Below, piece by piece: positions 3 to 8,082 of a stretch of DNA of 64,000 nucleotides (the first letter of the stretch is position 1; the number at the start of each line of letters is the position of its first letter). This DNA comes from Anaeroplasmataceae bacterium (lineage in GTDB: Bacteria > Bacillota_I > Bacilli_A > Acholeplasmatales > Anaeroplasmataceae): NCBI GenBank assembly GCA_029057785.1, contig JAIDZC010000010.1:1-64000 (forward strand), read 5' to 3'. The translations under genes and the position numbers were made by a program. Under the pieces are notes generated by a model. That model did not search any database and had not been told where the DNA came from. It saw only the letters and a program-made list of their open reading frames with translations.

Positions 3-632
3 TATAGAATTGCGTTAGATTCTTTTGATTTTAAATTATATCCAGATTGTATGGGAAGTGAAGAATTGTTAAATACTTTCATTCAATCAGGATTTTCAAT
101 ATATTCTACATATAGTTCAACCCTAGCACCTATTTATGAACGTGTTTGGAATCGTTGTAAAAAAATCAAGGTACCACAAGGAATCCGATTTGAAGTCTTT
201 CATAATCGAGAGTGTTTCAATCATTTAGAAGAATTATATTCCATTGCTAGTATTTCTTTCCAAAAGGCAGATTTTTATGAGCCAATTTCTTTTGAATGCT
301 TTAAAGAAATCTATTTGAAGAATATAGAATTAGTTCAACCAGATATATTACTTATTTATGATGAAGAAAGACCTATTGCATTTAATTTTTGTTATGAGGA
401 TTTAGAAAAAAGATTTTATGTGTGTAAAACAACTGTGATACTTCCAGAATATCGAAACAAAATGATTTTAAAACTATTGATAGATAAGTCTTATGAAATG
501 ATGATAGAAAAAGGCTATAAAGAGGTTTTATATCATTTCCAAAATGATCGAACAAAGGTATTAGATGGTATATTTAAAAATGGAATCCTTCGTCAAAAAA
601 AATATGGGGTATTACGTTATGAGAATAAATAA
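3..632 (+). CDS. GNAT-like acyltransferase, 5' end cut by window edge
   Basis: The frame is open from the first bases of the window, so the gene begins outside it; the first ATG, at 51, is probably internal. The C-terminal half reads like a GNAT fold: a beta strand with LLIYDEERPIAF, then VILPEYRNKMILKLLIDKSY, which resembles the acetyl-CoA-binding strand-loop-helix, and a final ILRQKKYGVLRY strand. A FemAB/peptidyl-transferase-like relative is also possible. The next gene starts 14 bases before this stop, so the two are translationally coupled and belong to the operon running to 8082. The substrate is unknown; an acyl transfer onto the product of the neighbouring ligases is an inference from context only. 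Confidence 0.6.
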   Translation, partial: YRIALDSFDFKLYPDCMGSEELLNTFIQSGFSIYSTYSSTLAPIYERVWNRCKKIKVPQGIRFEVFHNRECFNHLEELYSIASISFQKADFYEPISFECFKEIYLKNIELVQPDILLIYDEERPIAFNFCYEDLEKRFYVCKTTVILPEYRNKMILKLLIDKSYEMMIEKGYKEVLYHFQNDRTKVLDGIFKNGILRQKKYGVLRYENK

Positions 633-1689
633 TAAAACTTGTACACGTTGTGTAAATGATAGAACTATCAAGCATATTCATTTTGATAATAAAGGAGTTT
701 GTAATTTTTGTAACTCCTATGATAAGATATCTCCTGTTTTGGAAAATCAAAGCTATTTAGATAAGGTGTTCCAAAATAAAATCAAGGATCATACACATAC
801 CTATGATGTTGCATTAGGTTTTAGTGGAGGCAAGGATTCCACCTATGTGCTTTATCAATTGGTGAATAAGTATAAGCTTAAGGTCATCACATATACCTTA
901 GATAATGGATTTTTATCTGAAGAGGCAAAGAATAAAATTGATAGGCTTGTAAAGGAACTGGGAGTGGTTCACGAATATGTGGTCTGTGATATGAGGCTAT
1001 TAAAAGAAATGTACAAGGTTATGGTGGAGAAGTATTTGTCTCCTTGTATTGCCTGTTCCTTTTTAGGCTACGCTGTAATGTTAAATTATGCAACAAAGGT
1101 AGACGCGGCAATTGGGATTCATGGGAGAAGCCCTGCTCAAATGTTTCGTAATTATGCTAGTGATGTTGATGATGTGTTTAAACCATTTATAGAAGAAGGA
1201 TTAAAGGAAAATCCAATACCGATGAATGAACTTGTTTATACCATATTAGAAAAAATAGAGAAGCTAGTTCATCCTGCCTTAGCAAAAATGATAAAAGAAA
1301 ATCTTTTAAAGGAAGGTTTAGAACAAGGCTTTAGAGAGTTTGTTTCTTTCTTTTTATATCATCCATATGATAAAGATGAAATCATTCAAACTTTAACGCA
1401 AAATACTTCCTGGAGAGTAGAAAGTGAAGAAGAGCATTTTGATTGTTTAATTCATCATGGAGCTCTTTATTTAAAGGACCAAATTGCAAGAAGAAGTCAT
1501 CTTATGCCAGAGTATAGCTATCTTGTTCGTAGTGGTCAAATGACAAGAGAGGCTGCAGTAAAGGCACTCGAATATCACCACGATAAAAAACAATCCAAGC
1601 TAGAACTTAAAAAACTATGCCAATATGCTCATATTTCTTATTCTAAGGTTATGCTGAAGGCATTCATCTACAAAAGGAGATGGTGGTAA
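619..1689 (+). CDS. PP-loop ATPase, N-acetyl sugar amidotransferase (WbpG)-like
   Basis: The 356 aa protein starts with a zinc-type motif (CTRC near residue 8, then CNFC) followed by the PP-loop SGGKDST near residue 70, the signature of ATP pyrophosphatases that adenylate a carbonyl for amination or thiolation. A CIAC pair lies near residue 161, and the C-terminal LVRSGQMTREAAVKAL resembles the end of WbpG/PseA-type sugar amidotransferases. Those usually work with a HisH/HisF-like glutaminase pair, and none is visible here. ATG 619 was chosen over upstream in-frame codons because the family N-terminus begins there. The stop overlaps the next ATG (TAATG). The family call is good; the substrate is unknown. 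Confidence 0.75.
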   Translation: MRINNKTCTRCVNDRTIKHIHFDNKGVCNFCNSYDKISPVLENQSYLDKVFQNKIKDHTHTYDVALGFSGGKDSTYVLYQLVNKYKLKVITYTLDNGFLSEEAKNKIDRLVKELGVVHEYVVCDMRLLKEMYKVMVEKYLSPCIACSFLGYAVMLNYATKVDAAIGIHGRSPAQMFRNYASDVDDVFKPFIEEGLKENPIPMNELVYTILEKIEKLVHPALAKMIKENLLKEGLEQGFREFVSFFLYHPYDKDEIIQTLTQNTSWRVESEEEHFDCLIHHGALYLKDQIARRSHLMPEYSYLVRSGQMTREAAVKALEYHHDKKQSKLELKKLCQYAHISYSKVMLKAFIYKRRWW

Positions 1690-4493
1690 TGGTATTTTTC
1701 AAGCGTTATATTGTTTTGTTCTTTGAAATCATAATACTATATACCGCATGTTTAGCTAGTACTTTATTTAAAGTACCTATCTTTACGGAAACACTTTATG
1801 GTTTTATTCCATTTTTCTATTTGATTCGCGTATTAGATGATATCTTAGATTATGATACAGATCTAAAGAATAATAAGGCACCATTAAGTAAAGGAGTACT
1901 ATATTTTCTAGCAGGTTTCTTTTGTATAGGTACAATAGCTTTAATCTCTATATATCAGCTATGGTATTTCTTCTTGCTTTTTGTTTTTGTATTGTTCTTT
2001 GTTTTATTTAAGAAGATTTCCATCTATGCAAAAATGCTCCTTTTACCTGCTACATATAGTCTTTTTCTTTATTATAATTTTACATTTGAAATTGTGAATA
2101 TTTGTATGCTTGTTTTATTCTTTGTTTTATCTATTCTATATGCCCTTTATAAAAAATTAAGTCAAGTTAACTTTTATGAGAACTATAAGGAAATAAAGAG
2201 TATAGGTGGAAAAGCATATAATCTAAATTATGCCAAGGTGAAAAATACACCAGCCTATTTTGTAATTCCTACTGAATATTTTAAGAGTTTAGAAAAGGAT
2301 AAACAGGTAGAAGAACAACTCAAGAAAAAAATTAATTCCTTTTGTAAAAAAGGCGAGCTATATGCAGTGCGTTCCTCTGCAATAGATGAGGATTCTTCTA
2401 AGTTTAGCTTCGCAGGAATTCATGATACAAAGCTAAATGTAAAAAAAGAAGATGTTTTATCTAAAGTTTATGAGGTATATCAAAGTGCTTTTATGCCACT
2501 TGCCATAGAGTATAGAACAACCAATGGACTTCCTATAGAAGATATTTCAATGGCTGTTGTTGTACAAAAGATGATTGTAGAGCCAGAAGCTTCTGGTGTA
2601 ATCTTCACAATGAATCCAAAAACAGATAATCCTGATGAAATTATGGTTAGTATTGTAGATGGACTTGGGGAAGATTTGGTAAGTGGAAAGAAGGATTCTA
2701 AGGATTATTTTATATCTTCAGGTCATATTCATGGAGATACCTCTTTTATATCTATAAAAGTATTAAAACAATTGGAGAAGCTTGGTCTTAATTTACAAAA
2801 AAGATATGATGTATTTTTAGATATTGAATTTACAATTAAGAAAAATAAAATTTATTTTCTACAAGCACGTCCGATTACAACCTATTCTGATATTCATCCA
2901 AGTCAAAGAACTCTTTTAATTGACAATTCTAATTTGATTGAATCCTATTATGGGACCACCTCTTATTTAACTCAAAGCTTTGCAAAAAGTATTTATCAAG
3001 GTGTATATACAAAAACCTTAGAAGCAGGTCATATTAGAAAAAAGATTATGCATTCTTTAGAGCCTACCTTAGAAAATATGCTATATGCATATGAAGGAAA
3101 GCTTTATTATAATTTAAATAGCTGGTATCGTTTGACAAGTATCTTTCCTATGAAATCTTCAACCTCTTATATGGAACAAATGATGGGAGTAGGAAGCAGA
3201 ACAAAGTCTTATAAAAAAGTTAAACTGAATTTTATAGATATGGTTAAAATTGGAATTTGCTTTATCCATAGGCTTCACACTATGGATAAGGCATCCAACG
3301 CTTTTATCGAGAAATTTAATCGAGTGGTTTTGCCCTACTATGGACATGAATTGACTGGGACTAACGAGGAACTGATTGCTTTATATCACAAAATCGAAGA
3401 GGATATATTGTCTGATTTTGCAACACCAATCTTAAATGATTGTGCAGTAATGTTTTATAATGGTCGTTTAACTAAAAAAATAAAGAGGAAATATAAAGAT
3501 CAATATACAGAAATCTTCGCTACCTGTATTCATTCTAGTGGTACGATGGAAAGTGCTAAAGTGTGTAAGGAATATGAGGATATTTTAAAATGTATTCAAG
3601 AAGATGCTACTCTTTTATCTGATTTTAAAAATTTAGATCCAGAAGAACTATTTAATAAATATCATTCTAAGGAATTTGAAATATCTAAAAAAATAGAAGA
3701 GTATATCTTGCATTTTGGTTCACGAGTTATGAATGAGCTTAAGCTAGAAACGATTACTATGATAGAAAATCCAGTACTTTTGTATAAGCAAATTCAAGAA
3801 GGCTTAGCTTATCAACAGGAACCTAATTCAGAGGCACCTCTTGTAGAAATTCCTAAGGATATAAGAAAGCTTGCAGATAAGACAAGATATTATATTTTAA
3901 ATAGAGAGCGTCTTCGCTTAAAAAGAACCTATATCTTTTCTGTAGTACGAAATATCTTTTTAGCCATAGGAAGAAACTACAGAAACGAAGGAAAAATATC
4001 TTCTTCTAGAGATATCTTCTATCTAACAAAAGAGGAAGTATTTTCTCTTCCTGAAAATGTAGAAGAAGTAATAAAGCTTCGCAAAAAGGAAATGGAATAT
4101 TTTAGAAAACAGCCTTATTATTATCGCGTAAGCTTCTACCCACATAGAGTTTTACCTTTAAAGCAGAGTTCTTCAAAAGAAGAGTTAAAGGGGTTAAGTA
4201 ATGGTAAAGCAATTATAAAGGGGAAAGTATCTGTAATGAAGGAAGTGACAGATCCTTTTACTCCTGGAGATATTATCGTTGCCTCTAGGACAGACCCAGG
4301 ATGGATATCCTTATTCCCTTTAGCTAGTGGTTTAATCGTAGAACATGGAAGTATGCTTTCTCATAGCTTCGTAGTAGCAAGAGAATTAGGACTTCCTGCT
4401 GTTGTAGGTATACCTGATGTCACAAAGATTTTAAAAACGGGAGATGTGGTTACCCTAGATAGTGTTAAGGGGGTGGTTCACATTGAAGAATAA
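1689..4493 (+). CDS. Fusion: half UbiA-like membrane domain + PEP-synthase/RPH-like phosphotransferase
   Basis: The 934 aa protein has three parts. Residues 1-165 are strongly hydrophobic with about five membrane segments and an Asp-rich DDILDYDTD motif near residue 50 that resembles the first metal-diphosphate motif of UbiA prenyltransferases; the second UbiA Asp motif is not seen. From about 172 (GGKAYNL) to 400 is an ATP-grasp PEP synthase/PPDK nucleotide domain, with RSSAIDEDS and VVQKMI motifs. A helical middle region (about 410-830) leads to a swivelling phosphohistidine domain with GSMLSHSFVVARELG, the catalytic His being near residue 892. There is no PEP/pyruvate TIM barrel, so the order matches rifampin-phosphotransferase-like proteins. 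ATG 1689 has AGGAG nine bases upstream. A membrane-bound ATP-dependent dikinase acting on a lipid is inferred. Confidence 0.75.
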   Translation: MVFFKRYIVLFFEIIILYTACLASTLFKVPIFTETLYGFIPFFYLIRVLDDILDYDTDLKNNKAPLSKGVLYFLAGFFCIGTIALISIYQLWYFFLLFVFVLFFVLFKKISIYAKMLLLPATYSLFLYYNFTFEIVNICMLVLFFVLSILYALYKKLSQVNFYENYKEIKSIGGKAYNLNYAKVKNTPAYFVIPTEYFKSLEKDKQVEEQLKKKINSFCKKGELYAVRSSAIDEDSSKFSFAGIHDTKLNVKKEDVLSKVYEVYQSAFMPLAIEYRTTNGLPIEDISMAVVVQKMIVEPEASGVIFTMNPKTDNPDEIMVSIVDGLGEDLVSGKKDSKDYFISSGHIHGDTSFISIKVLKQLEKLGLNLQKRYDVFLDIEFTIKKNKIYFLQARPITTYSDIHPSQRTLLIDNSNLIESYYGTTSYLTQSFAKSIYQGVYTKTLEAGHIRKKIMHSLEPTLENMLYAYEGKLYYNLNSWYRLTSIFPMKSSTSYMEQMMGVGSRTKSYKKVKLNFIDMVKIGICFIHRLHTMDKASNAFIEKFNRVVLPYYGHELTGTNEELIALYHKIEEDILSDFATPILNDCAVMFYNGRLTKKIKRKYKDQYTEIFATCIHSSGTMESAKVCKEYEDILKCIQEDATLLSDFKNLDPEELFNKYHSKEFEISKKIEEYILHFGSRVMNELKLETITMIENPVLLYKQIQEGLAYQQEPNSEAPLVEIPKDIRKLADKTRYYILNRERLRLKRTYIFSVVRNIFLAIGRNYRNEGKISSSRDIFYLTKEEVFSLPENVEEVIKLRKKEMEYFRKQPYYYRVSFYPHRVLPLKQSSSKEELKGLSNGKAIIKGKVSVMKEVTDPFTPGDIIVASRTDPGWISLFPLASGLIVEHGSMLSHSFVVARELGLPAVVGIPDVTKILKTGDVVTLDSVKGVVHIEE

Positions 4494-5541
4494 ATATTTT
4501 AAAGAACCAAATTATATTCACTACAGTAATTGTCATGAGGATGTATTGCAATTAAAGAAATATATGCCTCCACATACAAGAAGGATTTTATCTATTGCGA
4601 GTGCTTTAGATAATTCTTTAGCCTTTTTAGAAAATGATGAAGTAGAAGTTCTAGCAATTGATTCAAATCCAAGTCAGGTTTATCTTTCTAAATTGAAAAT
4701 TGCTGCAATCAAACATTTATCTTATAATGACTTTCTCATTCTTTTAGGCTTTAAGGAAGAAAATTCTGTAGATGTTTATAATACTCTTCAAGCTTCTTTA
4801 GATGAAGAAACGAGAACATACTTTGAGGAACACCTATTTTTAATTGAAAATAAATTAATTCATGCTGGACGCTTTGAATATTATTTCCATTTATTTCAAA
4901 AAAAGATTTTACCTCTTGTTGCTTCAAAAAAGAAAATAGAGAAATTTATGAGTTTTGCATCAATAGAAGAACAAAGAAAATATTATAATAAGTATATTAA
5001 TAATCGTCGTTTCAGACTTTTATTTCGTATCTTTTTTTCTAAAAAGGTTATGGCAAAGCTCGGTAGAGATAAAGCATATTTTCAATATGCTGAAGGGTCT
5101 TTAGCTAAGATATTAAAAGAAAGAGTTGATTTAGGAATTTATCATAATTTAAATTCTTCTAATCCATATCTTCAATATGCTATGCTAGGTAAGTTTAAAG
5201 AATTGCCTTACTATGCTAAAGAAGAAGTATTTGATAAGATTAAGAAAAATATAGATAGCATAGAAGTAAAATGCATAGATTTTGAAACAGTAATTCAAAA
5301 TGAAGGAAATTTTGATTTTATGAATCTGTCAGATATATTTGAATATATGCCTGAAGACATTTCTCAGTTTGAAAAGTGGATACAAAACTCTTGTAATACA
5401 AATGCAAGAATTGCTTACTGGAATATGATGAATCCTAGGTATTTAAATGGATTTAAAAGAATCAATACAAAAGAGAATCTAAAAGAAGATCGAGCAATGT
5501 ATTATCAGGATTTTATTGTTTATGAGGTGCAACATGATTGA
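4483..5541 (+). CDS. BtaA-like (DUF3419) SAM 3-amino-3-carboxypropyl transferase
   Basis: BtaA moves the 3-amino-3-carboxypropyl group of S-adenosylmethionine onto diacylglycerol in betaine-lipid synthesis. This 352 aa protein shows the BtaA pattern: IHYSNCHED near the N-terminus, a SAM motif I-like ILSIASALDNSLAFL (about 35-49), an acidic strand end VLAIDSNPSQ (D60), GRFEYYFHLFQKKILPL, NPYLQYAMLGKF and a late FDFMNLSDIFEYMP. TTG 4483 was preferred because AAGGGGGTGG ends five bases before it; an upstream in-frame start inside the previous gene is less likely. No BtaB-type N-methyltransferase lies nearby, so the product may be an unmethylated homoserine-type compound rather than a betaine. 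The acceptor is unknown. Confidence 0.75.
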   Translation: MKNKYFKEPNYIHYSNCHEDVLQLKKYMPPHTRRILSIASALDNSLAFLENDEVEVLAIDSNPSQVYLSKLKIAAIKHLSYNDFLILLGFKEENSVDVYNTLQASLDEETRTYFEEHLFLIENKLIHAGRFEYYFHLFQKKILPLVASKKKIEKFMSFASIEEQRKYYNKYINNRRFRLLFRIFFSKKVMAKLGRDKAYFQYAEGSLAKILKERVDLGIYHNLNSSNPYLQYAMLGKFKELPYYAKEEVFDKIKKNIDSIEVKCIDFETVIQNEGNFDFMNLSDIFEYMPEDISQFEKWIQNSCNTNARIAYWNMMNPRYLNGFKRINTKENLKEDRAMYYQDFIVYEVQHD

Positions 5542-6817
5542 GCATTTTTTAAAAGAAATAAAACCAGCTATACAATATGTAAAGCATCATAAGAAAGTAA
5601 GTAAGAGTTTTAAAGAGTTTTATGAAGATATCTATAAAATGATAGTGCTTTTTCAAAAGAATCAACTAAAACCAAAGGATAAGGTTGGGTTATTTGTATT
5701 GCCATATTCTTATGATTTTTATGTTGTAATGTTTGCCAGCTTTTTATATCAATTGAATTTGGTTGTCTTTGATTCATATAAGAAAAATCATATAAATGAA
5801 TTAATGATATTAGAAGAAGTTAGATATTGTTTTGTGGATAGAAAAACAAAAATGATGAGTTCTTTTATCCTTCCTAAATGTAAAAAAATTAATGTGTCCT
5901 CATTTGTAAAAAATAAGGTGAATTATAATCTGAAAATAGAAAGCTCTTCTGATTCAGTTATTTTAACCACCTTTACTTCTGGAACCACAGGTACTCCTAA
6001 AGCAATTCATCGAACCATAGATTTTTTGTTGAAGCAAGCTAAAGAGATTGAAAATGAGATTAATTTACAAGATGAATTTTCTATCTTTGGTGGATTACCT
6101 ATTTATAATATGTTATCCCTCTATTTGTTAAAAACCACTTGTATTTCTAGAAAAATAAAAAGCATTCAAAAATTTCAACCAGATTGTATTTTAACAAACA
6201 TTCAAAAAATACTTTCAGAAAAACGAAGTTATCCTATGGTTAAAAAAGTTATGCTAGGGGGAGCTATCCTTTATTCTGAAGAAGTAAAGAAGATTAAAGA
6301 AGTATTTCCTAACGCCAGTATTACTTATGTTTATGGAGCAAGTGAAGGAGCCATAATTTATAAGACAAATCTTGATTTTTATCAAAACAATCTTTTCTGT
6401 TTTGATAAAAAGGCAAATGAAATTGAAGTGGCTATTTCAAACCCAAATAAAGATGGAGTAGGGGAAATTGTAATTAAAGGAGATAAGGTAAATACACCAA
6501 ATCATTTACATTACACAGGGGATTTAGGAAAAATTGTAAGTGGGACATTACAATTACTTGGCAGAAAAAAATATTCCTCTTTAGAGAAAGAGTTTTATAA
6601 CTATGCTTTTGATGAGGAAATACGTAAAAAAAATCTTTGCATGGCTTTTAGCTTTTATTATAAGAATCAGATATATGTGGCTTATAATGGAAATTTAAAA
6701 AATAAAAAAGAAGGTGTAGAATATATTTTTATGCGTCAATTACCGATGGACTTAAAGCATAAAACAAAACTTAATTATAAAGTGTGTCTAGATAAAATAG
6801 AAAAAAGTATGAAATGA
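5534..6817 (+). CDS. AMP-forming acyl/aryl-CoA synthetase-like ligase (ANL superfamily)
   Basis: The 427 aa protein carries the P-loop-like TSGTTGTPK near residue 149, VMLGGAIL and YGASEGA (motif A5 region), HYTGDLG (hinge Asp region) and a C-terminal PMDLKHKTKLNY that holds the usual catalytic Lys. It therefore should adenylate a carboxylic acid. It is about 100 residues shorter than ordinary acyl-CoA synthetases, mainly through a reduced C-terminal lid. ATG 5534 lies inside the end of the BtaA-like gene, with GAGGTG upstream. Given its neighbours, activation of the amino-carboxypropyl carboxylate or of a fatty acid is plausible, but neither is shown. Confidence 0.75.
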   Translation: MIEHFLKEIKPAIQYVKHHKKVSKSFKEFYEDIYKMIVLFQKNQLKPKDKVGLFVLPYSYDFYVVMFASFLYQLNLVVFDSYKKNHINELMILEEVRYCFVDRKTKMMSSFILPKCKKINVSSFVKNKVNYNLKIESSSDSVILTTFTSGTTGTPKAIHRTIDFLLKQAKEIENEINLQDEFSIFGGLPIYNMLSLYLLKTTCISRKIKSIQKFQPDCILTNIQKILSEKRSYPMVKKVMLGGAILYSEEVKKIKEVFPNASITYVYGASEGAIIYKTNLDFYQNNLFCFDKKANEIEVAISNPNKDGVGEIVIKGDKVNTPNHLHYTGDLGKIVSGTLQLLGRKKYSSLEKEFYNYAFDEEIRKKNLCMAFSFYYKNQIYVAYNGNLKNKKEGVEYIFMRQLPMDLKHKTKLNYKVCLDKIEKSMK

Positions 6818-6825
6818 AAATTTTT

Positions 6826-6860
6826 AGCATAGTATTAATAGGTGATACTATGCTTTTTTA
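6826..6860 (+). promoter_or_regulatory. Hairpin enclosing RBS and start codon of the MurC-like gene
   Basis: GCATAGTAT (6827-6835) pairs perfectly with ATACTATGC (6845-6853). The nine-base loop TAATAGGTG contains the Shine-Dalgarno sequence, the start codon ATG 6850 sits in the 3' arm, and six T follow. The element looks both like a weak intrinsic terminator and like a translation-sequestering hairpin. Confidence 0.5.
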
Positions 6861-8082
6861 TTTGGTTGGAATCAAAGGCTCAGCTTTAAGTGCTCTTGCA
6901 AAAATACTTTCTGAACAAGGCCATATTGTAAGAGGAGTGGATGTTGAAGAGGATTTTTATACAATGAATTCTATCTATCCAATTCGTACTGAAAGCTTTT
7001 CTAATATGCAATTAAAAAAATGCTATTTCTATATTATAGGGAACGCATTTATAAATCATAGTGTAACAAAATACATTCAAAGTATGGTGTATACTTATAT
7101 GACATATCCTCAATTTTTGAATTATCATTTTAATAATAAACAATGGATATGTGTCAGTGGAACCTCAGGGAAAACGACAACCACTAAAATGCTTGCAACA
7201 CTACTCCCTAATTCCACAAGTCTAATTGGAGATGGTTCTTATCAGGTTGGAACGAAAAAGGATTTTATTTTGGAATCCTGTGAATATAGAAATACTTTTT
7301 TAAATTATCATCCCTATATCTCTTTAATCTTAAATGTAAATTATGATCATGTTGATTTTTTCAAAACGAAAGAAGACTATGAAAAATCTTTTATCCAGTT
7401 TGCAAAACAGAGTAATATTTGCATAGTAAATGGAGATGAGTTTTCTTATAGAGCTGATAATGTAATTACCTATGGCAGAAATGAAGATAATGATGTAGTC
7501 TTTACATACGATAAGGGAAAGGTAACGATATTAAGAAAGATATTTGAACTCTCAATTGTAGGATTAAAATATGCCTATGATTTTGTTGGTGCTTATTTGG
7601 CTGTTAAACTATTAAATGAAAGAGATTCTGTAGTTCAAACTAGAATCAAGAATTTTGTTATGCCAAAACGACGCTTTGAAAAAACGGAAATAGGATCTCA
7701 AATCATTATTTCGGATTATGCACATCATCCTCAAGAAGTAGAGGCTATATATGAAACATTATGTGAACAATACGGTTCTATGAGAAAGATATGCATTTTT
7801 GAACCACATACAATCTCTAGATTACAATGCTTTATTAAAGACTATAAAAAAGTATTAGGACAATTTGATGAATGTTATTTGTATGGATTATTTAGTAGTG
7901 CAAGAGAAAAACACAATATTGTTTTAGAAAAGTCACTTTACAAGGAATTAGGATTTCAAGTTTATGATTACCATTTGAAACAAAGCTTATATAAAAAAGA
8001 AAATGTCATTATTTGTTTTTTAGGAGCTGGGACAATAGATCGTGCTTGTGAAGAATATAGAAAGGAACTCTTTAAGAGATAA
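6850..8082 (+). CDS. MurC-like Mur ligase, divergent and operon-dedicated
   Basis: The 410 aa protein follows the MurC/Mpl order: N-terminal Rossmann start LVGIKGSALSALA, P-loop SGTSGKTTTT (about 103), NYDHVDFF, the C-terminal-domain DYAHHPQEV (about 290), FEPHTISRL and GAGTID. MurC normally has HGKTTTT and GIGG(S/A)GM, so Ser replaces His in the P-loop and the N-terminal glycine motif is altered; the protein is also somewhat shorter. Such ligases join an amino acid to a carboxylate with ATP. A dedicated paralogue acting on the operon's product is more likely than the essential MurC. ATG 6850 was chosen over the ATGA-overlap codon at 6814 because family homology starts there. The transcript ends at the hairpin at 8074. 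Confidence 0.75.
   Translation: MLFYLVGIKGSALSALAKILSEQGHIVRGVDVEEDFYTMNSIYPIRTESFSNMQLKKCYFYIIGNAFINHSVTKYIQSMVYTYMTYPQFLNYHFNNKQWICVSGTSGKTTTTKMLATLLPNSTSLIGDGSYQVGTKKDFILESCEYRNTFLNYHPYISLILNVNYDHVDFFKTKEDYEKSFIQFAKQSNICIVNGDEFSYRADNVITYGRNEDNDVVFTYDKGKVTILRKIFELSIVGLKYAYDFVGAYLAVKLLNERDSVVQTRIKNFVMPKRRFEKTEIGSQIIISDYAHHPQEVEAIYETLCEQYGSMRKICIFEPHTISRLQCFIKDYKKVLGQFDECYLYGLFSSAREKHNIVLEKSLYKELGFQVYDYHLKQSLYKKENVIICFLGAGTIDRACEEYRKELFKR

Follow-up and report, generated by a model that had tools for sequence, protein, structure and literature searches.

A conserved five-gene operon in gut Bacilli as a putative gut-type version of a widespread pathway to a membrane amphiphile

The DNA analyzed here, referred to as the window, spans the initial 64 kb (64,000 nucleotides) of contig C2 in a metagenome-assembled genome of an Anaeroplasmataceae bacterium (1.76 Mb, 97.7% complete), whose close relatives are labeled in the databases as gut "Mollicutes" or "Bacillales" bins. 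The window begins with five co-directional, overlapping open reading frames (ORFs) that form a conserved unit. A sixth ORF, starting at 6850, was counted as part of the operon in the original prediction, which was made from the sequence alone; comparison of genomes kept the first five genes together and set the sixth apart as a housekeeping murC. With middling confidence as to the class of product, we propose a widespread pathway to a membrane amphiphile that would carry an aminocarboxypropyl unit derived from S-adenosylmethionine (SAM), with this locus as its gut-type version. The features are as follows.

3..632, forward strand: only the 3′ part of gene 1; GNAT domain at the C-terminus of a HAD–GNAT fusion whose HAD half is off the contig
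619..1689, forward strand: gene 2; ATP-dependent PP-loop amidotransferase resembling WbuX, with an N-terminal CxxC...CxxC and an SGGKDS motif
1680..4493, forward strand: gene 3; half-UbiA membrane domain (~1680–2160) fused to a dikinase like rifampin phosphotransferase (RPH), swivel His at 4362–4364
4483..5541, forward strand: gene 4; DUF3419 (BtaA-like), predicted SAM:3-amino-3-carboxypropyl transferase
5534..6817, forward strand: gene 5; a short ligase of the AMP-forming kind (adenylation enzyme), with which the conserved unit ends
6826..6854, forward strand: hairpin with a 12-pair stem holding the murC start codon; part of the murC leader, outside the operon
6850..8082, forward strand: murC; the genome's only UDP-N-acetylmuramate–alanine ligase homolog, a neighbor and not a member of the system

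Searches against Pfam and NCBIfam returned GNAT (weak), a PP-loop protein of the WbuX kind, PPDK_N with PEP-utilizers, DUF3419, AMP-binding, and a Mur ligase, and thus bore out the families that had been named for the first five genes by these domains. Profile searches with PF11899 found seven carriers, in two genera, among 160 genomes of the order and three further full-length loci among 395 genomes of the class; a blastp search with a single window protein picked up only three genomes with DUF3419 in the sample of the phylum, which shows the profile to be by far the more sensitive of the two. One scan of genome contigs, in a sample consisting of the nearest DUF3419 relatives of the query and same-class genomes and not of randomly drawn DUF3419 genes, gave 79 loci. 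Neighborhoods were scored with profiles built from the loci found, a gene being counted when it lay at most eight genes away on the same strand, and by this measure 82 DUF3419 loci contained the dikinase in 77 cases, the AMP-ligase in 75, and GNAT in 67. Among the 36 loci with at least six genes on each side, the dikinase, GNAT, and AMP-ligase genes are each present in 34. The linkage of these four families is far above chance, and their pairwise distances are correlated between families (r 0.86–0.94). Co-conservation had been set beforehand as the comparison on which the prediction depended; when it was run, the five core genes were found to be conserved together.

The set of DUF3419, dikinase, UbiA, GNAT, and AMP-ligase is carried by about 20 named phyla, many of the carriers being metagenome bins whose phylum assignment may err. 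Cultured carriers include Catonella morbi, Dyadobacter (D. fermentans), Sphingobacterium, Rubritalea, Natronospirillum, and Desulfobulbus, and a plasmid copy in Roseinatronobacter is annotated as UbiA, PEP/pyruvate-binding, DUF3419, two hypotheticals, and AMP-binding. A whole or partial operon was also seen in two bins of Candidatus Saccharibacteria (L067 and L080), which are usually small-genome epibionts; mis-binning is possible in these cases.

Two forms of the locus can be distinguished. In the broad form, UbiA is full length and is accompanied by the dikinase, DUF3419, GNAT, a membrane protein resembling phytol kinase, and an AMP-ligase related to OleC, often with a homolog of 3-hydroxy-3-methylglutaryl-CoA (HMG-CoA) reductase (HMGR) as its first gene. 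The gut form, which includes the window, likewise has the dikinase, DUF3419, and GNAT, together with a half-UbiA and a PP-loop protein resembling WbuX, and its AMP-ligases number one or two; its GNAT is fused to HAD in the Bacilli loci, and its Clostridia loci have an extra APH-like kinase. The PP-loop gene (23 loci) and the phytol-kinase-like gene (49 loci) are mutually exclusive except in L123, where the PP-loop gene (30% identity) is apparently unrelated. In a tree of DUF3419, the gut-form loci make up one clade (99% by the Shimodaira–Hasegawa-like approximate likelihood-ratio test) beside the broad-form loci. Judged from these sequences, the gut form is nested within the broad form, with a root that is unsure because the tree is a quick one and the outgroup branches are long.

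The broad form offers the richest indications of what the pathway may produce. Its HMGR homolog is a full-length family member (381 bits) that keeps the Glu, Lys, Asp, and His which we take, from general knowledge of HMGR, to be catalytic, and the usual substrate motif is altered. HMG-CoA synthase was found in none of ten genomes with these loci (nine sampled genomes and the window genome) and DXR of the methylerythritol phosphate (MEP) pathway in all ten, a set that mixes the two forms, with gut-form loci in the window genome and in Catonella; the HMGR gene lies inside the fetched locus in part of the broad-form genomes only. Since the MEP pathway is used and HMG-CoA synthase is missing, the HMGR homolog has no visible supply of HMG-CoA. 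The phytol-kinase-like protein received no name from Pfam or NCBIfam; it is so called for its RKxxH motif (48 of 48 loci), its build as a multi-helix membrane protein, and a GKKSxEGS motif that presumably resembles those of phytol/dolichol kinases. L091, L095, and L128 gave no GNAT; each has instead a formyltransferase (assigned in L128 by sequence likeness to L095) whose Asn-x-His motif is intact. This replacement of GNAT by a formyltransferase in three broad-form loci suggested that the amine receives a small acyl cap. Sphingobacterium (from Pfam) and L104 (from inspection of its sequence) each have a pair of CdsA-like and CDP-alcohol phosphotransferase genes, inserted at operon positions that differ between the two, and genes resembling those of lipid transport, AsmA-like and START-like, occur in other broad-form loci. 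Taken together, the RPH-like dikinase, the HMGR homolog, the formyltransferase swap, the CdsA/CDP-alcohol pair, and the AsmA- and START-like genes point to membrane lipids.

Gene 3 carries strong Pfam matches to PPDK_N (E 1e-48) and PEP-utilizers (E 2e-22). Its dikinase part has the ATP-grasp, the acceptor domain, and the C-terminal swivel domain with its His that are found in RPH-type enzymes; His895 is invariant, and the LSH motif is found in 66 of 66 dikinases. The best sequence match is rifampin phosphotransferase, and the predicted structure matches the fold of this enzyme (5hv1) over its whole length (E 6e-32), in a model with a predicted local distance difference test (pLDDT) score of 79, TM-scores of ~0.4, and poor inter-domain placement. 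Enzymes of the RPH family phosphorylate small-molecule hydroxyls via a phospho-histidine (PMC12167813). The earlier assignment of a UbiA domain ahead of the dikinase holds in part: Pfam did not detect it, and in a profile comparison the N-terminal 160 residues match the front half of complete UbiA proteins (94.8%, E 5e-8). Instead of the two Asp-rich motifs and nine helices of a complete UbiA, the window domain has ~160 amino acids and one motif, DDILDYDTD, which retains the first Asp motif of full UbiA. In the broad form, UbiA has its full length (PF01040, 42 bits) and carries ExxRK, which is not Asp-rich, as its second motif. In L010, L048, L049, and Clostridia, a short ORF separate from the dikinase takes the place of the fusion. 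The membrane-anchored phosphohistidine dikinase of the original prediction is supported.

Gene 4 matches PF11899 with 170 bits. The transfer of a SAM-derived aminocarboxypropyl unit by a BtaA-like enzyme is supported as a prediction. The predicted structure of gene 4 has a pLDDT of 95.7; assignment by fold gave weak matches (SAM/Dam methyltransferases and nicotianamine synthase) and was set aside. DUF3419 genes also occur in other settings. A different cluster on Rhizobium plasmid pMK-2 (L165, 97111–107950) contains ketoacyl-ACP synthase III (KAS III), an NAD(P)-dependent oxidoreductase, an MBL-fold hydrolase, a CoF synthetase, DUF3419, and a hypothetical gene. In a class-mate genome (L051, G381:C7:34000–53000), about 18 head-to-tail genes of ~300 amino acids each are weakly DUF3419-like in the SAM-binding half, and three such ~300-residue genes are present in L050 (G375:C2:57000–70000). 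The tandem array in L051 is a striking expansion.

Gene 2 scores 144 bits against TIGR03573 (WbuX), under the family cut-off of 203, and the corresponding protein of L106 scores 137 bits. The SGGKDS motif is present in the PP-loop proteins of 24 of 24 loci, and the match of gene 2 in the PDB is an N-acetyl sugar amidotransferase (E 1e-4). Gene 5 matches AMP-binding in Pfam (E 3e-20) and has all three adenylation motifs (TSGTTGTPK, YTGD, and HKTK). Activation of a carboxylate had been expected twice, by this ligase and by the Mur-type enzyme; the second activation, which depended on the Mur-type enzyme, is not supported. The AMP-ligases of the broad form match PRK09274/OleC best, with 336 and 333 bits.

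The reading frame of gene 1 is open at the start of the window, and the gene is truncated because the window begins at the contig end. Its GNAT domain matches Acetyltransf_1 (E 0.002). Orthologs in G130, G133, G134, G135, G136, G268, and G426 (loci including L009, L011, L012, L013, L048, and L049) are 480–487 amino acids long, and the aligned orthologs start with a HAD-type FDLDGTLW motif; HAD_2 was matched in both orthologs scanned, L009 (E 1e-12) and L011. The missing HAD half, which lay out of reach of the original prediction, had no match elsewhere in the window's own assembly, and in G123 the HAD half of the ortholog has decayed.

In the pathway that we propose, the UbiA-type membrane domain would act with the RPH-like dikinase to prepare a lipid acceptor, the dikinase phosphorylating a hydroxyl through phospho-His895 (ATP → AMP + Pi). 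The DUF3419 enzyme would move the 3-amino-3-carboxypropyl group from SAM onto the acceptor to give a homoserine-type head, introducing an amine and a carboxylate together. GNAT would cap the amine and the AMP-ligase would activate the carboxyl. Arginine synthesis through N-acetylated intermediates follows the same order, with the amine capped before the carboxylate is activated. In the broad form, a neofunctionalized HMGR would turn the carboxyl into an alcohol and the CTP-type phytol-kinase-like enzyme would phosphorylate this alcohol; in some lineages, CdsA and CDP-alcohol phosphotransferase would then use the phosphate. In the gut form, the place of the reductase and the kinase would be taken by the WbuX-like PP-loop enzyme, which may either amidate the activated carboxyl or convert the N-acetyl group to an acetamidine. 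Amination of one of these groups is suggested by the gut form having a PP-loop amidotransferase and neither the reductase nor the kinase. The HAD protein, or the APH-like kinase in Clostridia, may adjust a phosphate. What the analysis shows is the gene content, the motifs, the co-inheritance, and the lack of HMG-CoA synthase; the individual steps are inferred, and this exact order of steps is unlikely to be right throughout. A more detailed version, which we consider decidedly unlikely, is that the broad form would make a glycerol-free phospholipid, an amine-capped O-alkyl homoserine whose carboxyl is activated, reduced by the repurposed HMGR, and phosphorylated to form a phosphatidate-like core, and the gut form a matching amide or amidine lipid by way of the dikinase tethered to half-UbiA.

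Several points weigh against the proposal. The reading of the gut form as a lipid pathway is carried over from the broad form, since the gut form is without CdsA, CDP-alcohol phosphotransferase, and transport genes, and half-UbiA is its only unmistakable lipid gene. As just half of a UbiA domain is kept, prenyl transfer by the gut-form protein is doubtful. The GNAT and UbiA calls in Pfam are weak. Furthermore, branches of 3.9–5.2 changes per site separate the DUF3419 of the clade from the btaA-type outgroup, and at such a distance from btaA-type sequence the aminocarboxypropyl transfer is itself a prediction.

A soluble secondary metabolite or signal built from the SAM-derived aminocarboxypropyl unit, with the membrane domain merely tethering the dikinase, would fit the patchy spread over phyla and the single plasmid copy in Roseinatronobacter. 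The AMP-ligase, GNAT, dikinase, and PP-loop families all serve small-molecule pathways, and another DUF3419 gene sits in an unrelated cluster of the KAS III/CoA-ligase type. We nevertheless regard such a product as somewhat unlikely, as a UbiA-type domain is present in both forms, the broad form has the phytol-kinase-like membrane protein and the CdsA, CDP-alcohol phosphotransferase, AsmA, and START-like genes, and no dedicated export gene is conserved in the neighborhoods. A variant of betaine-lipid synthesis, in which DUF3419 would, like BtaA, put homoserine directly on ordinary diacylglycerol, leaving the rest of the enzymes to modify only the head group, draws on the DUF3419 membership of gene 4 and on the fact that BtaA is the sole DUF3419 family member with a reported role in a 2023 review of SAM alkyl transfer (PMC10491745). 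This variant is improbable: a BtaB methyltransferase was neither found in the window unit nor recurrent in the neighborhood table, whereas a Rhizobium DUF3419 gene lies in an apparent btaA–btaB pair; the clade is far from that Rhizobium btaA-type sequence; and UbiA and the dikinase would be left unexplained.

The adjoining UbiA, phytol-kinase-like, and HMGR-family genes of the broad form could also be taken as a pathway for isoprenoid-alcohol salvage or prenylation in which DUF3419 has a minor part. This is quite improbable given the absence of HMG-CoA synthase and the presence of DXR in all ten tested genomes, and given that the gut form lacks HMGR, the kinase, and half of UbiA, yet keeps DUF3419, the dikinase, and the AMP-ligase. 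Finally, the original prediction had the MurC-like ligase adding a residue to a wall-linked metabolite. In the window and two relatives, murC does lie at most 33 bp downstream of the operon. This six-gene version is effectively refuted by comparison, as murC is the sole MurC of the genome, occurs without the operon, lies away from it in L012, G136, L048, and L049, and is undetected in the operon-bearing G123.

The murC gene scores 199 bits against TIGR01082, below the cut-off, as it does throughout this genus; this is the best of seven places and the only full-length murC match in the genome. The gene is single copy and is kept irrespective of the operon, being present in relatives without a DUF3419 gene (G132, G137, G138, G139, G115, and G092). 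In several operon-free relatives it lies next to ccpA and tyrS, which flank it in L142–L144, and the ccpA–tyrS block also follows the operon in L009 and L013. In L012 (G130), three rhamnose-catabolism-like genes separate the operon from murC, 3.6 kb apart; G136 has the two on separate contigs, and they are not adjacent in G268 or G426 (L048, L049). The genome G123 (95% complete) carries the operon, and its only murC-profile match is weak and partial (32 bits, in a 411-residue frame). As G123 has the operon without a recognizable cell-wall Mur ligase, the operon product is unlikely to need peptidoglycan; the aminoacyl-lipid type of product in the original prediction is supported and the wall-linked product is not. 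Collectively, murC is not a member of the pathway, whose core is five genes.

A terminator shared by all six genes had also been proposed, and a scan to 8400 gave no convincing one after murC. The strongest terminator-like element is the 12-pair hairpin between the AMP-ligase gene and murC, over the murC start codon. The same hairpin precedes murC in L012 and hence travels with murC and not with the operon; since it belongs to murC, the conserved unit ends at 6817. The hairpin keeps its place ahead of murC across the genus. In the window, L009, L012, and L013, its 3′ arm includes the start codon and its loop an AGGTG-like ribosome-binding sequence, and from this arrangement it is possibly a translational leader controlling murC. 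In three nearly complete genomes of the same family (G095, G122, and G123), no or a single weak Mur-ligase match was found, which may reflect the loss of peptidoglycan synthesis in part of the family.

No published description of the operon was found in the open-access literature, subscription journals and preprints lying outside the search, which agrees with the earlier statement that the combination matches no named pathway. The lipocone paper that came up in this search concerns other operons. To our knowledge, no other named pathway holds this gene set. The pathway as a whole is apparently new, each enzyme family being already known, a view that a paper outside that search could change. 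If the proposal is true, about 20 bacterial phyla, with gut and oral anaerobes such as Treponema and Catonella among them, make a class of lipid or other amphiphile that has been overlooked so far. It would also mean that a member of the HMGR family acts apart from the mevalonate pathway and that a dikinase of the RPH type takes part in biosynthesis. The cultured carriers Dyadobacter fermentans, Sphingobacterium, Rubritalea, Desulfobulbus, and Catonella morbi make the pathway directly testable.

Compared to known systems, the operon exhibits several features of its own. The nearest named pathway is betaine-lipid synthesis by BtaA/BtaB, which makes diacylglyceryltrimethylhomoserine (DGTS); it shares the DUF3419 family, the predicted SAM aminocarboxypropyl donor, and the membrane context, and differs in that the operon lacks BtaB, has several other conserved enzymes, and has a DUF3419 in a separate, very distant group. 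It is not a fit because BtaB is missing and most of the conserved genes would be unexplained. WbuX/WbpG N-acetyl sugar amidotransferases are the best family match of gene 2 and share its PP-loop and N-terminal Cys motif, whereas gene 2 falls below the family cut-off and the conserved unit has no sugar genes. The OleC-type AMP-ligases are the best match of the broad-form ligases and share the HxxK end motif, whereas the unit is without OleA, OleB, and OleD and the window ligase is much shorter (433 amino acids). HMGR, whose homolog belongs to the broad form only and is absent from the window, is alike in full length and conserved catalytic Glu, Lys, Asp, and His; the differences are the missing HMG-CoA synthase of the ten tested genomes and the altered substrate-binding motif. 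Rifampin phosphotransferase and other small-molecule dikinases (HpeHI and phenylphosphate synthase) share the ATP-grasp, the acceptor domain, the swivel His, and the whole-length fold with gene 3, whereas the dikinase of the operon is fused to, or lies beside, a UbiA-type membrane domain in a biosynthetic operon.

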